A stretch of 64,000 nt of DNA from Chitinophaga pinensis (GTDB lineage: Bacteria > Bacteroidota > Bacteroidia > Chitinophagales > CAMDFR01): the NCBI GenBank assembly GCA_945860705.1, contig CAMART010000002.1, positions 124,001-188,000 of the forward strand, written 5' to 3'. The position numbers were made by a program, and so were the translations under genes. Below, one piece after another: positions 28,954 to 36,037 of the stretch (its first letter is position 1; the number at the start of each line of letters is the position of its first letter). The notes beneath the pieces are model-generated. The model was given only the letters and a program-made list of their open reading frames with translations. It had not been told where the DNA came from and searched no databases.

Positions 28954-31900
28954 TTATTTATTTACTACAATTGTTTTTTGTGTAAATTCATTGCCTATTT
29001 GTATATAAGCTATATACATACCAGCACTGAGTGATGAAGTATTTAGTGTCATTTTGTTTAAGCCTATAGTTAAGTCATTATTTACTTTCATAACTTCTTG
29101 ACCTAGTGCATCAATCAATCTGATAGTACCACTTGTATTTTTTGTTACCGATACTTCTATTGTAGTATTTTGTAAAGTAGGATTTGGATAAAACTCACCA
29201 ACCGAAGTAGAGCTATTTCTATTTATATAAGCAGATACGATAGAAGATTTTTCAGACTTACCATCATTATCTATTTGATTGAGTCTATAATAATACTCTC
29301 GACCTGCTACTACATTATGATCATCATAAGCATATGCTCGTGATATAGACGAGTTGTTATGTCCATTTACAAATCCGATTTTTTCAAAATTAATACCATC
29401 AGTACTTCTTGTTACTTCAAATCCTTTATTATTAATTTCTGAAGCGGTAGTCCAACTTACTTGAATATATTCATTATTGATAGGTTTTGCTTGTATAGAT
29501 GTATATGTCACTGGCAATGGAGTAGAAGTGTGAGGCGAGATACCTACGCCACCACTTCCACCAGAGAAGCTAGTGATACCATTAAATTCAACATAAGTTA
29601 CACCATTTTCTGTACCAGTTGTTCCTGTAAGGGTAATAAAGTTGAAGTTGAAATTGTTTCCGTCATTAATAAGTCCTGCACTAAAAGGTGCTCCTACAGT
29701 TTTGAACCATTGGAAAGCTACAGGGAAATGTGTTCCTGGGTTTGCAGTATTCAATGCAGTAAGTTTTGCATCTCTTTGTGAAGTAATAGAAGTAATCTCA
29801 GCTGGATCGTAGTAGAAACGTATATTCACTGGATCTACTAAAGTACTAGTACTCACATTCCAAAATCTACTCATTACATAAAAAGCATCAGTTCTAGTTA
29901 CATAAAAGGTTCTTGATTTTTCATCAAATATATTGGAAGCTAGTTTAACTATAGTTACCACAGCGGCATTTTTTGGAGTAGCATTTGTAGTTCCCCATTC
30001 TATAGCAAACAACCATTTATCTGGGTCTGTAGGATCTGCATAGTATGTCCATCCTCCGTTTTCACATTCTACAGGAAGTGTAGAACCATTGGTAGAATTT
30101 GATGCCAATACAACATGTGCCGAACCTGAACGTATAGGCCAAGTAGCTATCACATTAGTAGCTGTAGCATTACATCCTATGCCTGTACCAGCAGTTCTGC
30201 TTACTCTTACTTGTACAGATGTAGCAGCAGCAGTAGTTGTAATATTTGCACCAGAAGTATATGAAGCCCATGAAGAACCTCCATTTGTAGAAAACTCGTA
30301 TACATCACTTGCACCTGTACCACCTGTACCAGCATTGATGGTTACATTCACATTATCGCCTTGACATATTTCTGTACCACTAGCAGGGGTAGCTGTATTG
30401 ATAGTAGGTAAAGTTGGTTGTATAGTCACAGGCCAAGTAGCTACTACTGCAGGACTAGTAGCATTACATCCAGTAGCTGAGCCAGCAGTTCTGCTTACAC
30501 GCACTTGTACAGATGTAGTAGCCGATGCAGTACTAATTGGATCACTAGGTGAATAAGCAGACCAAGAAGATCCTCCATTAGTAGAAAACTCATATACATC
30601 GCTTGCTCCTGTTCCTCCAGAACCAGCGTTAATCGTAGCACTTACGTTTTGTCCTTGACAGATAGTACCAACAGAAGGAGTAGCTATATTTAAAGTTGGA
30701 GCGATAGGTTGAATAGTCACAGGCCAAGTAGCAATTATATTAGTGCTCGTAGCATTACATCCCGTACCTGTTCCAGCAGTTCTGCTCACTCTTATTTGTA
30801 CAGAAGTAGTAGCTGATGCTGTAGTAATAGTAGCACCAGAAGTATAAGCCGACCATGAAGAACCACCATTAGTAGAAAACTCATATACATCGCTCGCACC
30901 AGTACCACCAGTACCAGCTGTAATCGTAGCACTTACATCTTGTCCTTGACAGATGGTTGTACCAGATGTTGGAGTAGCTACATTTAAAGTTGGAGCTATT
31001 GGTTGTATAGTTACAGGCCAAGTAGCAATTACATTAGGACCAGCAATATTACATCCAGTACCAGTACCTGCAGTTCTGCTTACTCTTATTTGTACAGAAG
31101 TAGTTGCAGATGCTGTAGTAATAGCAGTACCAGAAGTATAAGCTGCCCATGAAGAACCACCATTAGTAGAAAAGTCATATACATCGCTCGCACCTGTTCC
31201 ACCTGAACCAGCGGTGATTGTAGCACTCACGTTTTGTCCTTGGCAGATAGCCGTACCACTTACTAAACTTGGAGTATTGAGTGTTGGTGCAACAATCTGA
31301 GGAGTTACAGTCCATGAAAATACATTGGTAGGTGAATTATTACATCCTGATCCACTGCATTCTTTTCTCAATTCTATGGTATTTGTACCTACTACAGCAG
31401 CAAAACTAGGTAATGTAGTACTCCATGCACTAAATCCGCTTCCATTATCAAATCTATACATAAGATTGCAGGTACCAGTTCCACCACCAGCATCTGTTGC
31501 TCCACTTACTGTTAGGGTTTGTCCAGCGCATACATTTGCATTATTAGGTGATTTTGTAGCTGTAGGCATTATAGGGTCTAATACTACTATTGCAGTTGCA
31601 TTACCTGAAGTGGCAGTATTACAATCTGTACCAGATGCAGATACTAAACATCTATAAAGGTATGTGTCTGCAGGTGTAGTTACATTTGTAGTTGACGCGG
31701 TCATGCTGTTTGAAGTAGCTCCCGCATAAGTAATGCCTGCAGGAGTTCCATCTACCACATTATTCCATGTACCACTATTATATTGCCACTGATAGGTAAG
31801 TGACGGAGTACCTCCTGAAGCACTTACACTTACTGTAAAATTAGAACCTTGACAAACAGGGTTTGGTGGCGAAGTAACACTAGAAATAGAAGGATCTGCA

Positions 31901-33174
31901 ACTACATTTACTTGAATGATATTGCTATAAGCTACGGTACCACATGCATCTGTTATTTTTCTTCTGAAAAAATAAGTGCCTACTGCTAATGTCGCATCAG
32001 GGTCGAAAGTTGTTGAGTTTATTCCTACATTGGTGATAGTAGCAAAAGTATTTGTAGGTGCTCGTTCCCATTGATAAGTGGAACTTCCATATGCATACGC
32101 ACCCACAGTTAATGCCCCAGTAGCATCTGCTGTACTTGTAAATGCTCCAGGATCATCGCCTACACAGATAGAAGTAGGATTTGTTATGCCTGCTATTGTG
32201 CCTCCATTGATAGCAGCTAAATTATTAGCAACAACACTTAAGTTGAAATCACCAGTATTAGTGTTAAATCCTTCTACTACTATGACATATGTACCTGCAC
32301 AAAGTGCTCTTGTTATTGCAGATGTAGTGCCTAATCCACCTCCATCATCATCAAATGCAATCTCTGTTCCACATCCTGAGTTGTATAATCTTAAATACGA
32401 ATCATAGTTTGTACCTGCATTATTAGTGCCGATGGTTACAACTTGAGGAGAAGAAATGGTAAATTGATAAAATACATCTGGAGAGCCATTGCCCAATACG
32501 TTTGTATATCCTTTATCAGATGAAGCACCGCCTGGCGCACCTCTATTAGTATTGATATGACTTTTAGCAGTACCTGTTGTGAGTGTACCAAAATTTAATG
32601 CAGAAGCGCATGAATTTCCATTTGTATATCTCCATACAGATTTCATATACAATATGCTATTACCGATTGACCAACCATCTTCAACACCTGCTGCTCCAGC
32701 AAATCCCCACCAACTACAGGCAGTTTTTGTAACGCTTTTAAATGTGTAATTAGTGGCATCATTGGCTGTACAAGCATCACCAGAAGAACTACAATCTGGC
32801 GCACCATCTTCTTCCCATGACTCTTTTTGTATATTAAAAAAATCAGCATTATTAGTTCTATTAGTACAATTATACATTAAAACACTATGAACAGTAGTAG
32901 AAGGAGCATCAGCTTGCCACCTACGTACATAATTATTTCCTCCACAAGAAGCGCCAGATCCTCCACTAGTCCATGTTGCAGTTCCACCTGTATTTCCATC
33001 TGAGTTTAGCCCAATACGTACTTCATTATCATCGGCAGAAAATGCGTCATTATCACATGTTTGTCTCCATTGTTCTACACGCATTTCATAGTTGACATTA
33101 CCGTTGGATATTTGTGCATTTATATTTGCATTTATAGCAAATAGGAGTGTTAAAGCTATTAAGTAAGATTTCAT
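28954..33174 (-). CDS. Giant repetitive T9SS-exported surface protein
   Basis: A 1406-residue secreted protein. The signal peptide is MKSYLIALTLLFAINANINAQ. A unique N-terminal domain (about 25-190) rich in Asn, Trp and Cys is followed by a pre-peptidase-like beta domain (PQVVTIGTNNAGTNYDSYLRLYN), Ig-like modules, then four nearly identical modules of about 98 residues, each with ICQGQ-VSATI-AG, GASDVYEFSTNGGSSW and VSRTAG-GCN. A further domain, a FnIII-like module and a type A T9SS sorting domain (VGEFYPNPTLQNTTIEV, ending FTQKTIVVNK) complete it. It is probably an adhesin or matrix protein (inference). The start at 33174 is chosen because the longer form would bury the signal peptide and overlap the upstream gene. 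Confidence 0.88.
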   Translation of the reverse strand: MKSYLIALTLLFAINANINAQISNGNVNYEMRVEQWRQTCDNDAFSADDNEVRIGLNSDGNTGGTATWTSGGSGASCGGNNYVRRWQADAPSTTVHSVLMYNCTNRTNNADFFNIQKESWEEDGAPDCSSSGDACTANDATNYTFKSVTKTACSWWGFAGAAGVEDGWSIGNSILYMKSVWRYTNGNSCASALNFGTLTTGTAKSHINTNRGAPGGASSDKGYTNVLGNGSPDVFYQFTISSPQVVTIGTNNAGTNYDSYLRLYNSGCGTEIAFDDDGGGLGTTSAITRALCAGTYVIVVEGFNTNTGDFNLSVVANNLAAINGGTIAGITNPTSICVGDDPGAFTSTADATGALTVGAYAYGSSTYQWERAPTNTFATITNVGINSTTFDPDATLAVGTYFFRRKITDACGTVAYSNIIQVNVVADPSISSVTSPPNPVCQGSNFTVSVSASGGTPSLTYQWQYNSGTWNNVVDGTPAGITYAGATSNSMTASTTNVTTPADTYLYRCLVSASGTDCNTATSGNATAIVVLDPIMPTATKSPNNANVCAGQTLTVSGATDAGGGTGTCNLMYRFDNGSGFSAWSTTLPSFAAVVGTNTIELRKECSGSGCNNSPTNVFSWTVTPQIVAPTLNTPSLVSGTAICQGQNVSATITAGSGGTGASDVYDFSTNGGSSWAAYTSGTAITTASATTSVQIRVSRTAGTGTGCNIAGPNVIATWPVTIQPIAPTLNVATPTSGTTICQGQDVSATITAGTGGTGASDVYEFSTNGGSSWSAYTSGATITTASATTSVQIRVSRTAGTGTGCNATSTNIIATWPVTIQPIAPTLNIATPSVGTICQGQNVSATINAGSGGTGASDVYEFSTNGGSSWSAYSPSDPISTASATTSVQVRVSRTAGSATGCNATSPAVVATWPVTIQPTLPTINTATPASGTEICQGDNVNVTINAGTGGTGASDVYEFSTNGGSSWASYTSGANITTTAAATSVQVRVSRTAGTGIGCNATATNVIATWPIRSGSAHVVLASNSTNGSTLPVECENGGWTYYADPTDPDKWLFAIEWGTTNATPKNAAVVTIVKLASNIFDEKSRTFYVTRTDAFYVMSRFWNVSTSTLVDPVNIRFYYDPAEITSITSQRDAKLTALNTANPGTHFPVAFQWFKTVGAPFSAGLINDGNNFNFNFITLTGTTGTENGVTYVEFNGITSFSGGSGGVGISPHTSTPLPVTYTSIQAKPINNEYIQVSWTTASEINNKGFEVTRSTDGINFEKIGFVNGHNNSSISRAYAYDDHNVVAGREYYYRLNQIDNDGKSEKSSIVSAYINRNSSTSVGEFYPNPTLQNTTIEVSVTKNTSGTIRLIDALGQEVMKVNNDLTIGLNKMTLNTSSLSAGMYIAYIQIGNEFTQKTIVVNK
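30100..31290 (-). repeat. Four in-frame tandem repeats of about 294 bp inside the giant T9SS gene
   Basis: The same GCAGTTCTGC anchor recurs near 30191, 30485, 30776 and 31070, a spacing of 291-294 bases, i.e. 97-98 codons. The copies are highly alike at DNA level as well as protein level, so recent duplication or gene conversion is likely. These are coding repeats, not a CRISPR array. Confidence 0.9.
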
Positions 33175-33190
33175 TTCAAGCAAGTTTAAT

Positions 33191-34441
33191 TTAATAGTTG
33201 ATAAAATTATTTTTTTTATAAAAGTAATATGGCTCATTTGCTATATTAACGTTTGGTTTAATTAATGCTCTAGCTTTATGTTGGTTAAGTGTAATATTTG
33301 ATAAACAATATACGAAAACTTTTTCAGTTTTATATTTTTTTTGTGCATCTTTTTTTAATTTTTGTGCTAATTGCCATATAAAGTAAGAATCATTGTATGT
33401 ATTCATTAGTTGTCTATAAGTGATTAACTGACTAAAATCTACAAAATACTTGTCTTTTAAATCGGGTAATTCTACTAAAAATTGAAAATATTCAGGTTCG
33501 TGATTATGTAGCATCATTCTCCATGCAAAGTAGTGGCCTTGTCTGTGCCATGCCAATCCGTCTAGCATAAATAAAAACCTCAAAGGAAATAACATTTGTA
33601 CAATAAAAAATAAAATTAAGATATATCGATTTATTTTATTTTGAAATATTATACCAAAATCTTTAAAAATAGATTTTATATTGTATTTATATATAGTTAA
33701 ATAAATTGCCCAAGCGACTATCATCACAAGTGGGAACTCACCAATATTGAATATAAAATAGTTTGATAAATGAAATGTAAAATATGGAATAACTACGAAT
33801 ATAGATTTGGGTTTATACCATAAAATAAAGGGGATTAATAAATCAAAAAACAATCCAAAATAGCTCATAAATATACCTAATATATCAGGGAAAGGATACG
33901 CTCTATTTGTAGTAAGCAAACGCATTGGATATCCTTGTAGCCAATCTGAATTTATTTTTGCGATACCACCATAGAAATATACAATAGAAAATAGTAAGCC
34001 AAAAACAAGATAGTTGCCTATACTAATAGTTTTGTTTGTGTTTTTTTTGATTAAGTCGATTATGGATATTGATTTATTAGTATCAATAATTATATATAAA
34101 AAAGATATTAAACACCATAAATAATAATGGTTATTATAAAAGGACATATCTATCAAAAACAAATAACCAAAAGATATGAAAAAAAGGAATGCACCAATTT
34201 TTGGGAATACACCACTTGCTAATAAAATCGCTCCAAATGCTGCTAAATAAGTTAATGTATAAATCAACTCATGAGAGTATGCTTCTATAAAAGCAAGATT
34301 GGGATAGTGAAATACAAAAGTAGATTCAGAAAGATCATGAACATGAGGTGCTAAATTAAAAACTTGAGGAAGCATTAATAAACCAAAAAAGCATCTAAAT
34401 ATTGAGAAGTTTATTGCAGATACTTCAATACTTTGTTTCAA
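33191..34441 (-). CDS. HTTM-domain (vitamin K-dependent gamma-carboxylase-like) membrane protein
   Basis: A 416-residue polytopic inner-membrane protein with about nine hydrophobic helices. Features matching the HTTM/VKGC family are the early SIFRCFFGLLMLPQV helix, SFYNNHYYLWCLISFLYI, and YFYGGIAKINSDWLQGYPM, the signature segment before WL. A soluble C-terminal tail (about 340-416) follows. Catalytic function in bacteria is unclear; human VKGC carboxylates glutamate. It is sandwiched in an apparent operon: 18 bases after a small exported protein and 16 bases before the giant T9SS gene. Confidence 0.8.
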   Translation of the reverse strand: MKQSIEVSAINFSIFRCFFGLLMLPQVFNLAPHVHDLSESTFVFHYPNLAFIEAYSHELIYTLTYLAAFGAILLASGVFPKIGAFLFFISFGYLFLIDMSFYNNHYYLWCLISFLYIIIDTNKSISIIDLIKKNTNKTISIGNYLVFGLLFSIVYFYGGIAKINSDWLQGYPMRLLTTNRAYPFPDILGIFMSYFGLFFDLLIPFILWYKPKSIFVVIPYFTFHLSNYFIFNIGEFPLVMIVAWAIYLTIYKYNIKSIFKDFGIIFQNKINRYILILFFIVQMLFPLRFLFMLDGLAWHRQGHYFAWRMMLHNHEPEYFQFLVELPDLKDKYFVDFSQLITYRQLMNTYNDSYFIWQLAQKLKKDAQKKYKTEKVFVYCLSNITLNQHKARALIKPNVNIANEPYYFYKKNNFINY

Positions 34442-34849: not shown

Positions 34850-35015
34850 GATATATTTAATTATATTACGAAATTAGGTAATTTTTTTGAAATATTATCA
34901 CAGTATTTTATTTTAATATTTAATTAAATTAATTATAATATTCCTATAACATGGTTTGTGCCAGATAAACAACGAAGAGAAAGATGTGAAAGTATTATAA
35001 TAAGCTAATACTTTG

Positions 35016-35219
35016 GCTTAGTTGGGGGGTGGTTAGTAGTTCGGCTTTGGTTGAGCGAGTCGGCAGGTAGGCTTCGTGGGAGGAAACTAAGTCAAAGTTG
35101 TATGCGAGTCGGCTAGAAACTTTGACTTAGTTAGGCTTCGGCTAGGCTAATCGGCTAGAAACTTCGACTTAGTTATATGCTTCGGCTAGGCAAGTCGGTC
35201 TTGCAGGTCGGTAAGGTTT
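35016..35219. repeat. Upstream REP-like palindromic array next to the RAYT gene
   Basis: A GC-richer block within AT-rich DNA. It has arm AACTAAGTCAAAGTT (35085-35099), its exact reverse complement AACTTTGACTTAGTT (35118-35132), and a third arm with one change (35160-35174). The arms alternate with GTCGGCTAGAA and GGCTTCGGCTAGGC cores. Units repeat in tandem with a period of about 42 bases. It fills much of the 407-base gap between the small exported protein and the transposase gene; the part left of 35016 is AT-rich and featureless. Confidence 0.85.
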
Positions 35220-35223
35220 TTAA

Positions 35224-35231
35224 TATCTTTG
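35224..35231 (+). promoter_or_regulatory. -7 box of the RAYT gene
   Basis: TATCTTTG, 25 bases before the ATG. A TTG at 35201-35203 gives a -33 box with a 20-base spacer, the best full promoter in the window. That -33 box lies inside the end of the upstream repeat array. Confidence 0.65.
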
Positions 35232-35256
35232 AAATAAAAAGTATTTATTTTTTAAA

Positions 35257-35868
35257 ATGGATATACGTAACGAAAAGATAGAATCTGAATGTTTTTATCA
35301 CATTTATAATAGAGGAATAAATGGATGTCTTATTTTCAAAAATGAAGAAAACTATTCTTTTTTTCTTAAAAAATTTGAATTGTATTTAGATAAGTATTGT
35401 GATATATATTCTTATTGTCTCATGCCCAATCATTTTCATTTTTTGATAAAAGCAAAATCGGAGGACGAACTTAAAAAACTAATATTAAGCAATAATAACT
35501 TAAAGTCAATATCCAATATGGGATTGCATTCTCCTATAAATATTGTAAGTAAACAATTAGGAAAATTTATAAGTAGTTATAGCCAAGCATATAATAAAGT
35601 GCATAAAAGACATGGTCCACTTTTGGAGTCACCTTTCAAAAGAATAAAAGTAGACACACTTGATTATTTAAAAAATTTGATTTTATATATCCATTTAAAT
35701 CCTGTAGATATAGGAATTGATTATGACATATATAAGTTTTCGTCATATAATTCTGTCGTTTCAAAAAACAAGACTAAAATAAAAAGAGAAGAGATATTAG
35801 AATTATTTGATAATGAAGAAAATTTTATGAATTGTCATAGGATATACCACCAAAAAAATAGAAAATAA
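35257..35868 (+). CDS. REP-associated tyrosine transposase (RAYT, Y1 HUH family)
   Basis: A 203-residue single-strand DNA transposase of the IS200/IS605-related TnpA-REP group. The HUH metal-binding motif is H59-F60-H61 in LMPNHFHFLIKAK. The N-terminus (CFYHIYNRGINGCLIF) is typical of RAYTs. The nucleophile is a tyrosine in the helix SSYSQAYNKVHKRHG (Y108 or Y112), followed by PLLESPFKRIKVD and LILYIHLNPV, the family signature. There is no tnpB and no classical IS ends; instead the gene is flanked by palindromic arrays, the standard REPtron arrangement. The frame is intact, so it may be active. Confidence 0.92.
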   Translation: MDIRNEKIESECFYHIYNRGINGCLIFKNEENYSFFLKKFELYLDKYCDIYSYCLMPNHFHFLIKAKSEDELKKLILSNNNLKSISNMGLHSPINIVSKQLGKFISSYSQAYNKVHKRHGPLLESPFKRIKVDTLDYLKNLILYIHLNPVDIGIDYDIYKFSSYNSVVSKNKTKIKREEILELFDNEENFMNCHRIYHQKNRK

Positions 35869-35901
35869 ACTTTAAATAAATTAAAAACATTTAAGTTTTA
35901 A

Positions 35902-36037
35902 GCGATTCGGCAGGTAGGCTTCGTAGGAAACTAAGTCGAAGTTGTCTGCGAATCGGCTAGAAACTTTGACTTAGTTAGGCTTCGGCTGAGCAATTAGATT
36001 AGTCGGCATCGGCTAGACGAGTCGGGTAGTAAGTAAC
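35902..36037. repeat. Downstream REP-like palindromic array next to the RAYT gene
   Basis: It repeats the upstream block almost exactly in the same order: CGGCAGGTAGGCTTCGT, arm AACTAAGTCGAAGTT (35929-35943), ATCGGCTAGAA, arm AACTTTGACTTAGTT (35962-35976), AGGCTTCGGCT. A degenerate tail with CGGCATCGGCTAGACGAGTCGG follows. With the upstream copy it forms a direct repeat of about 85 bases bracketing the transposase gene. Confidence 0.85.

Follow-up and report, generated by a model that had tools for sequence, protein, structure and literature searches.

The window, that is, the whole stretch of 64,000 nt that was analysed, carries a gene for a RAYT-type transposase with a GC-rich palindromic array on either side, and the question raised by this locus is whether the arrays are the cognate repeats of the enzyme. 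We consider it probable that the locus is of the REPtron type, i.e. that it represents a Bacteroidota RAYT family related to subclass 2.1/TIRYT and flanked by cognate hairpin repeats. The finding extends a known kind of system, the REPtron, and is not a new kind. The gene is located as follows:

35257..35868, + strand: RAYT-type Y1 HUH transposase, 203 aa, with H59-F60-H61, the catalytic Y144 in YIHLNP, and SS at 162-163

The open reading frame is intact and its 203-aa product matches Pfam Y1_Tnp just above the cut-off (26.3 bits, cut-off 23; E 8.6e-6), in agreement with an earlier note on this DNA, which had described a 203-residue Y1 HUH transposase with His59-Phe60-His61. Its identification as a RAYT, also made there, is borne out by fold and profile, which both match TnpA_REP: an AlphaFold2 model of the protein (pLDDT 96) has E. 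coli TnpA_REP with a REP hairpin (4er8) as its top PDB fold (E 4.3e-6, TM 0.57/0.69), and 4er8 was also recovered by sequence with the family profile (E 1.1e-6); a PDB sequence search with the single window protein and a search of PHROGs gave no match. With NCBIfam REP_Tyr_transpos the protein scores 35.1 bits (E 1.1e-8), far under the curated cut-off of 80 bits; the proteins that passed this cut-off in the present analysis are mostly W-type RAYTs. In an alignment of 107 family sequences, the HUH histidines are present in all 107 and Y144 in 106. Position 123 is F in 91 of the 107 and L in the window RAYT (motifs NHFH / LE / YIHLNP); L123 is a departure from the family, of which the other conserved residues are kept. 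The GTAG-reading residues of E. coli TnpA_REP (W94, Q95, E100, H101 and R104; PMC6006769) align, in the family-profile alignment, with L123, E124, R129, I130 and D133 of the window RAYT.

The arrays that bracket the gene are composed of the following elements, to none of which a strand is assigned:

35009..35209: upstream array, rich in GC, of four 15-nt arms joined by GC-rich linkers; part of it (35109-35198) is a tandem repeat of a 42-nt unit
35009..35023: degenerate arm TACTTTGGCTTAGTT, 2 mismatches
35085..35132: upstream hairpin, AACTAAGTCAAAGTT - 18-nt loop - AACTTTGACTTAGTT; arms 35085-35099/35118-35132, 15/15 paired
35160..35174: third arm AACTTCGACTTAGTT, 15/15 complementary to arm 35929-35943, across the gene
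35898..36025: downstream array, also rich in GC, which repeats the upstream array in direct orientation
35929..35976: downstream hairpin, AACTAAGTCGAAGTT - 18-nt loop - AACTTTGACTTAGTT; arms 35929-35943/35962-35976, 14/15 (93%) paired

The two blocks lie where the earlier note had placed them and share a direct repeat of 78 nt at 87% and 31 nt at 90% identity (35051-35158 and 35898-36002); exact 15-bp arms, which it had given for both, were found in the upstream block, whereas the downstream pair has one mismatch. The GC content of the arrays is 45-48%, against 16-27% in the adjoining sequence, and the z-scores for single-strand folding are -2.8 and -2.7 for the upstream and -2.2 for the downstream array. 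The hairpin arms are only partly self-symmetric (5/7 pairs). GTAG abuts none of the 15-nt arms; its nearest occurrences in the window are at 35067-35070 and 35914-35917 (14 and 11 nt off), and a canonical GTAG REP was rejected for this locus because the hairpins have no adjoining guide. No T-tract follows the window hairpins; one terminator-like site was found, at 35194-35212. The locus is adjoined by a gene for an HTTM/vitamin K-dependent gamma-carboxylase-like membrane protein (window 33191-34441), and within the gene for a 1427-aa protein (28954-33237) a 294-nt unit is repeated about 3.8 times (30136-31248).

A promoter candidate overlaps the end of the upstream array:

35201..35231, + strand: candidate Bacteroidota promoter, TTG (35201) - 20 nt - TATCTTTG (35224-35231), the putative -33 part lying in the array end

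TTG-N20-TATCTTTG matches the Bacteroidota promoter consensus. TAnnTTTG was found upstream of 19 of 110 family genes (5.9 expected), and together with TTG at the right spacing in five cases (0.6 expected). The proposal that the array supplies the -33 box agrees with the array end carrying the TTG and with the fit to the consensus, but the box comprises only three bases, and the predicted overlap of array and promoter is plausible but weak.

In the 2.94-Mb genome to which the window belongs, no second copy of the array was found (the sole other match is 26 nt at 88%), and the arm-loop-arm pattern was found nowhere else. GTCGGCTAGAA, which had been put forward as the core of the REP, was rejected in that role, since it has a single exact copy in the genome and sits in loop and linker, private to the window locus. 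The RAYT subfamily of the window is represented by one copy in the genome; that the window RAYT is the only RAYT of the genome holds for this subfamily alone, as a search with the family recovered four further intact RAYTs as well as remnants. Judged from these sequence searches, the restriction of the repeats to their home locus would be compatible with decay or with a purely local role.

The association of hairpin and gene was followed across the phylum with a set of loci that comprised 80 from a genome collection, further ones from genomes related to that of the window, and the window locus itself; 300 nt were scanned on each side of the gene, and a hairpin was counted when two 15-nt arms paired in at least 13 of 15 positions. 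Such hairpins were present in 68 of 105 upstream and 68 of 108 downstream flanks, against 12 of 342 control segments (300 nt each, farther out at the same RAYT loci), and at least one lay within 300 nt at 87 of 103 loci. Among 29 RAYTs of the other type of the phylum (including four from the window genome), which served as a specificity control, hairpins were found at none upstream and at two downstream. Upstream and downstream arms of the same locus are identical in at least 13 of 15 positions at 41 of the 46 loci that have both, compared with 182 of 2070 cross-locus pairs, and arm identity correlates with RAYT identity (Mantel r 0.36, a value reached in none of 2000 permutations). The arms are themselves near-palindromic (mean 5.0/7 pairs; 2.3 in shuffled arms), and the loops measure 2-6 nt in 117 of 137 elements and 3 nt in 88; the 18-nt loop of the window is one of few long ones, with similar loops at locus L053 and at Pedobacter loci. 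The usual plan in the family is a 15-3-15 hairpin with near-palindromic arms and no GTAG guide. A search of the literature with the palindrome sequences returned only an unrelated mitochondrial paper. At one locus (L025:325-954), the RAYT frame appears to continue into the palindrome downstream, part of the C terminus then being encoded by the hairpin; at another (L030), a Bacteroidota RAYT and a Flavobacterium-type palindrome are found on a contig that is labelled as a Bifidobacterium breve MAG and is probably misbinned or contaminated.

Dispersed copies are present in the genomes of several relatives. The pattern TTGNCAANGTT-N2-5-AACNTTGNCAA occurs in 40 copies in F. notoginsengisoli and in 14-19 copies in the genomes of six other relatives (0-1 for the reversed-pattern control), and was absent from the window genome and three congeners; in the genome of the closest relative (Fluviicola), no strict hairpin copies were found. 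Each inspected copy in F. notoginsengisoli is a 33-bp unit that reads AACTTTGTCAAAGTTnnnAACTTTGACAAAGTT or differs little from it; the flanking sequences are unrelated, none of the copies is spanned by a long open frame, and no GTAG guide was seen at the inspected Flavobacterium copies. In Flavobacterium and Chryseobacterium the RAYT is located at orthologous sites between species, which points to vertical inheritance, and the hairpins vary in number or are absent. With flanking palindromes at most loci and dispersed copies in relatives, the candidate Bacteroidota REPtron family proposed by the earlier note is supported. Of the two findings that it had said would speak against this family, arrays confined to this place in the genome and related RAYTs devoid of flanking repeats, the former was obtained, so that one half of the counter-case holds, but the relatives do have flanking repeats.

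In a quick tree, the family and the W-type RAYTs of the phylum fall into separate groups (99*), and the family joins long RAYTs on plasmids of Legionella, Sporomusa and Rhodospirillum; two of these three plasmid proteins have Bac_DnaA_C-like C termini, as weak matches below the cut-off. A C-terminal HTH or Bac_DnaA_C-like domain is the hallmark of subclass 2.1 (PMC6006769), and a C-terminal HTH was found in 0 of 68 family members. The HUH and Y boxes of the window RAYT fit the 2.1 motifs (NH[YF]H / FQ / Y[IV]HLNP), with L at position 123, and the protein does not fit the 2.6 motifs (NH[LIV]H / WQ / YIH[QN]NP). From quick tree and motifs, the family is provisionally placed on the subclass 2.1/TIRYT side. 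For subclass 2.1, automatic and manual searches had found no REP-like sequences near the genes, and 20 of the 26 TIRYTs of PMC3733652 fall into it (PMC6006769); self-complementary and double palindromic TIRs are mentioned for some TIRtrons (PMC3733652).

The locus was compared with four known systems. With the E. coli REPtron (TnpA_REP, 4er8; Quentin subclass 2.2, Bertels group 2) it shares the Y1 HUH fold and a lone enzyme gene between cognate palindromes, with dispersed intergenic copies in relatives of the window RAYT; the hairpin of the family differs in that it has no GTAG guide, with the guide-reading residues not conserved, and its 15-bp arms lack the required bulge. Subclass 2.6 (Bertels group 5; PMC6006769) is found in the same phylum, and atypical structures without GT[AG]G flank its genes, with copies elsewhere; the window family has, in contrast, NHFH / F (L in the window) / YIHLNP, the flanking structures of 2.6 being compared by description. 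The TIRYT/TIRtron systems (PMC6006769, PMC3733652) have nearly fitting motifs, and the identical palindromes found at either end resemble the self-complementary TIRs of some TIRtrons, but the family has no C-terminal HTH and carries a 15-3-15 hairpin rather than GGGGWSAS-type TIRs. IS200/IS605 (subclass 1.1) has HUH/Y1 chemistry and subterminal hairpins in common with the locus; the window RAYT has, however, Y...NP and not Y...Q, a single-copy gene and no tnpB, and the RAYT is orthologously placed in congeners of relatives instead of multicopy and near-identical.

The four other intact RAYTs of the window genome (C6:124009-124485, C44:3128-3604, C14:10673-11125 and C18:38808-39257; loci L201-L204) are of another type and have palindromic or inverted-repeat sequences alongside. 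Those on contigs C6 and C44 are close paralogues; those on C14 and C18 carry the 2.6 motifs NHIH / WQ / YIHNNP and form a separate clade in the quick tree. A frameshifted RAYT (C14:53291-53736; L197) lies amid GGTTTGTG-nnn-CACAAACC palindromes, and the palindrome GGTTTGTGNNNCACAAACC occurs at 11 genomic places with at most 2 mismatches, five of them at this dead RAYT. A Y1 protein of about 143-147 aa (C21:20338-20559; L198) with the subclass-1.2 motifs DHIH, WQ and YIKNQKQHH is flanked by palindromes such as ATAGCCCAAGGTTTAAACCTTGGGCTAT; subclass 1.2 is described as generally without such flanking structures. With several sets of RAYT and palindromes in the genome, the system of the window is one of several.

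If the REPtron reading is right, each hairpin with 15-bp arms would fold when the DNA is single-stranded, e.g. on the lagging-strand template, and the RAYT, as a domesticated Y1 single-strand endonuclease/ligase, would bind the hairpin, cut beside it via Tyr144, and could rejoin the ends; in relatives, such cutting and rejoining may have turned the hairpin into a dispersed short repeat that is non-autonomous. Binding, cleavage, mobilisation and autoregulation by the window RAYT family are in this sense what we infer from computed observations, namely the anatomy of the locus, the family-wide association, the coupling of arm and enzyme, the dispersal in relatives, and the orthologous placement in some congeners. 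Counted against the REPtron reading were the missing dispersal here and in Fluviicola, the long loop, the partly self-symmetric arms and L123. Since the hairpins occur at the home locus only, with a loop of 18 nt instead of the usual 3 nt, the arrays may serve only locally, perhaps now as no more than sites at which their own enzyme binds or is regulated.

Several of these features would also be accounted for by a decaying REPtron relic, in which the RAYT has ceased to act on the repeats and what is left of them, the arrays, has expanded by replication slippage: no dispersed copies are present, the loop is long, the array contains a 42-nt tandem unit and a degenerate arm, and L123 replaces the F of the family. 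We regard this as unlikely, as the open reading frame is intact, the residues otherwise conserved in the family are kept, and the arms of the upstream hairpin pair without a mismatch along all 15 bp. That the arrays are regulatory or terminator hairpins, duplicated by chance as a direct repeat of about 105 nt and unrelated to the substrate of the enzyme, is less likely still: the hairpins directly flank the gene on both sides, and the terminator-like site and the possible overlap of a -33 box with the array would suit such a role, but the hairpins are not followed by a T-tract, hairpins of the same type with matching arms are found on both sides of the gene in the family, relatives have copies far from any RAYT, and the arm sequence tracks the enzyme, with no such hairpin at the other RAYT type of the phylum. 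An autonomous insertion sequence (IS200/IS605-like or a TIR element) that moves as a unit with the arrays as its ends is highly improbable in spite of the compact layout of gene and palindromes and of the missing array and RAYT beside the orthologous BNR gene of the sister species, because the RAYT subfamily is single-copy, the gene is orthologously placed in Flavobacterium and Chryseobacterium, no tnpB adjoins it, and the dispersed units in relatives are 33-bp hairpins and not the gene. The empty site was rejected as proof of insertion: the sister contig ends after the 472 nt that it covers and the HTTM neighbour gene was not found in three congeners, so that gain and loss are indistinguishable.

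Within the preferred REPtron reading, a more specific proposal, which we are slightly inclined to doubt, is that this large Bacteroidota RAYT branch on the 2.1 side possesses a REP class of its own, namely hairpins that lack a guide, are typically 33 bp long and show four-fold symmetry (15-3-15, near-palindromic arms), and whose two strands would be near-equivalent substrates, with the aromatic W of the guide region replaced by F; the window would then be a home-confined, long-loop variant. Subclass 2.1 is the second largest RAYT subclass and was published as REP-free, a statement that would need amending if the branch belongs there. The branch would provide a way to recognise REPs without GTAG, and, since the arms differ by species but plan and enzyme coupling are retained, it offers matched enzyme-hairpin pairs for specificity swap tests. 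For the organism itself, several distinct RAYT-palindrome systems coexist in one genome.
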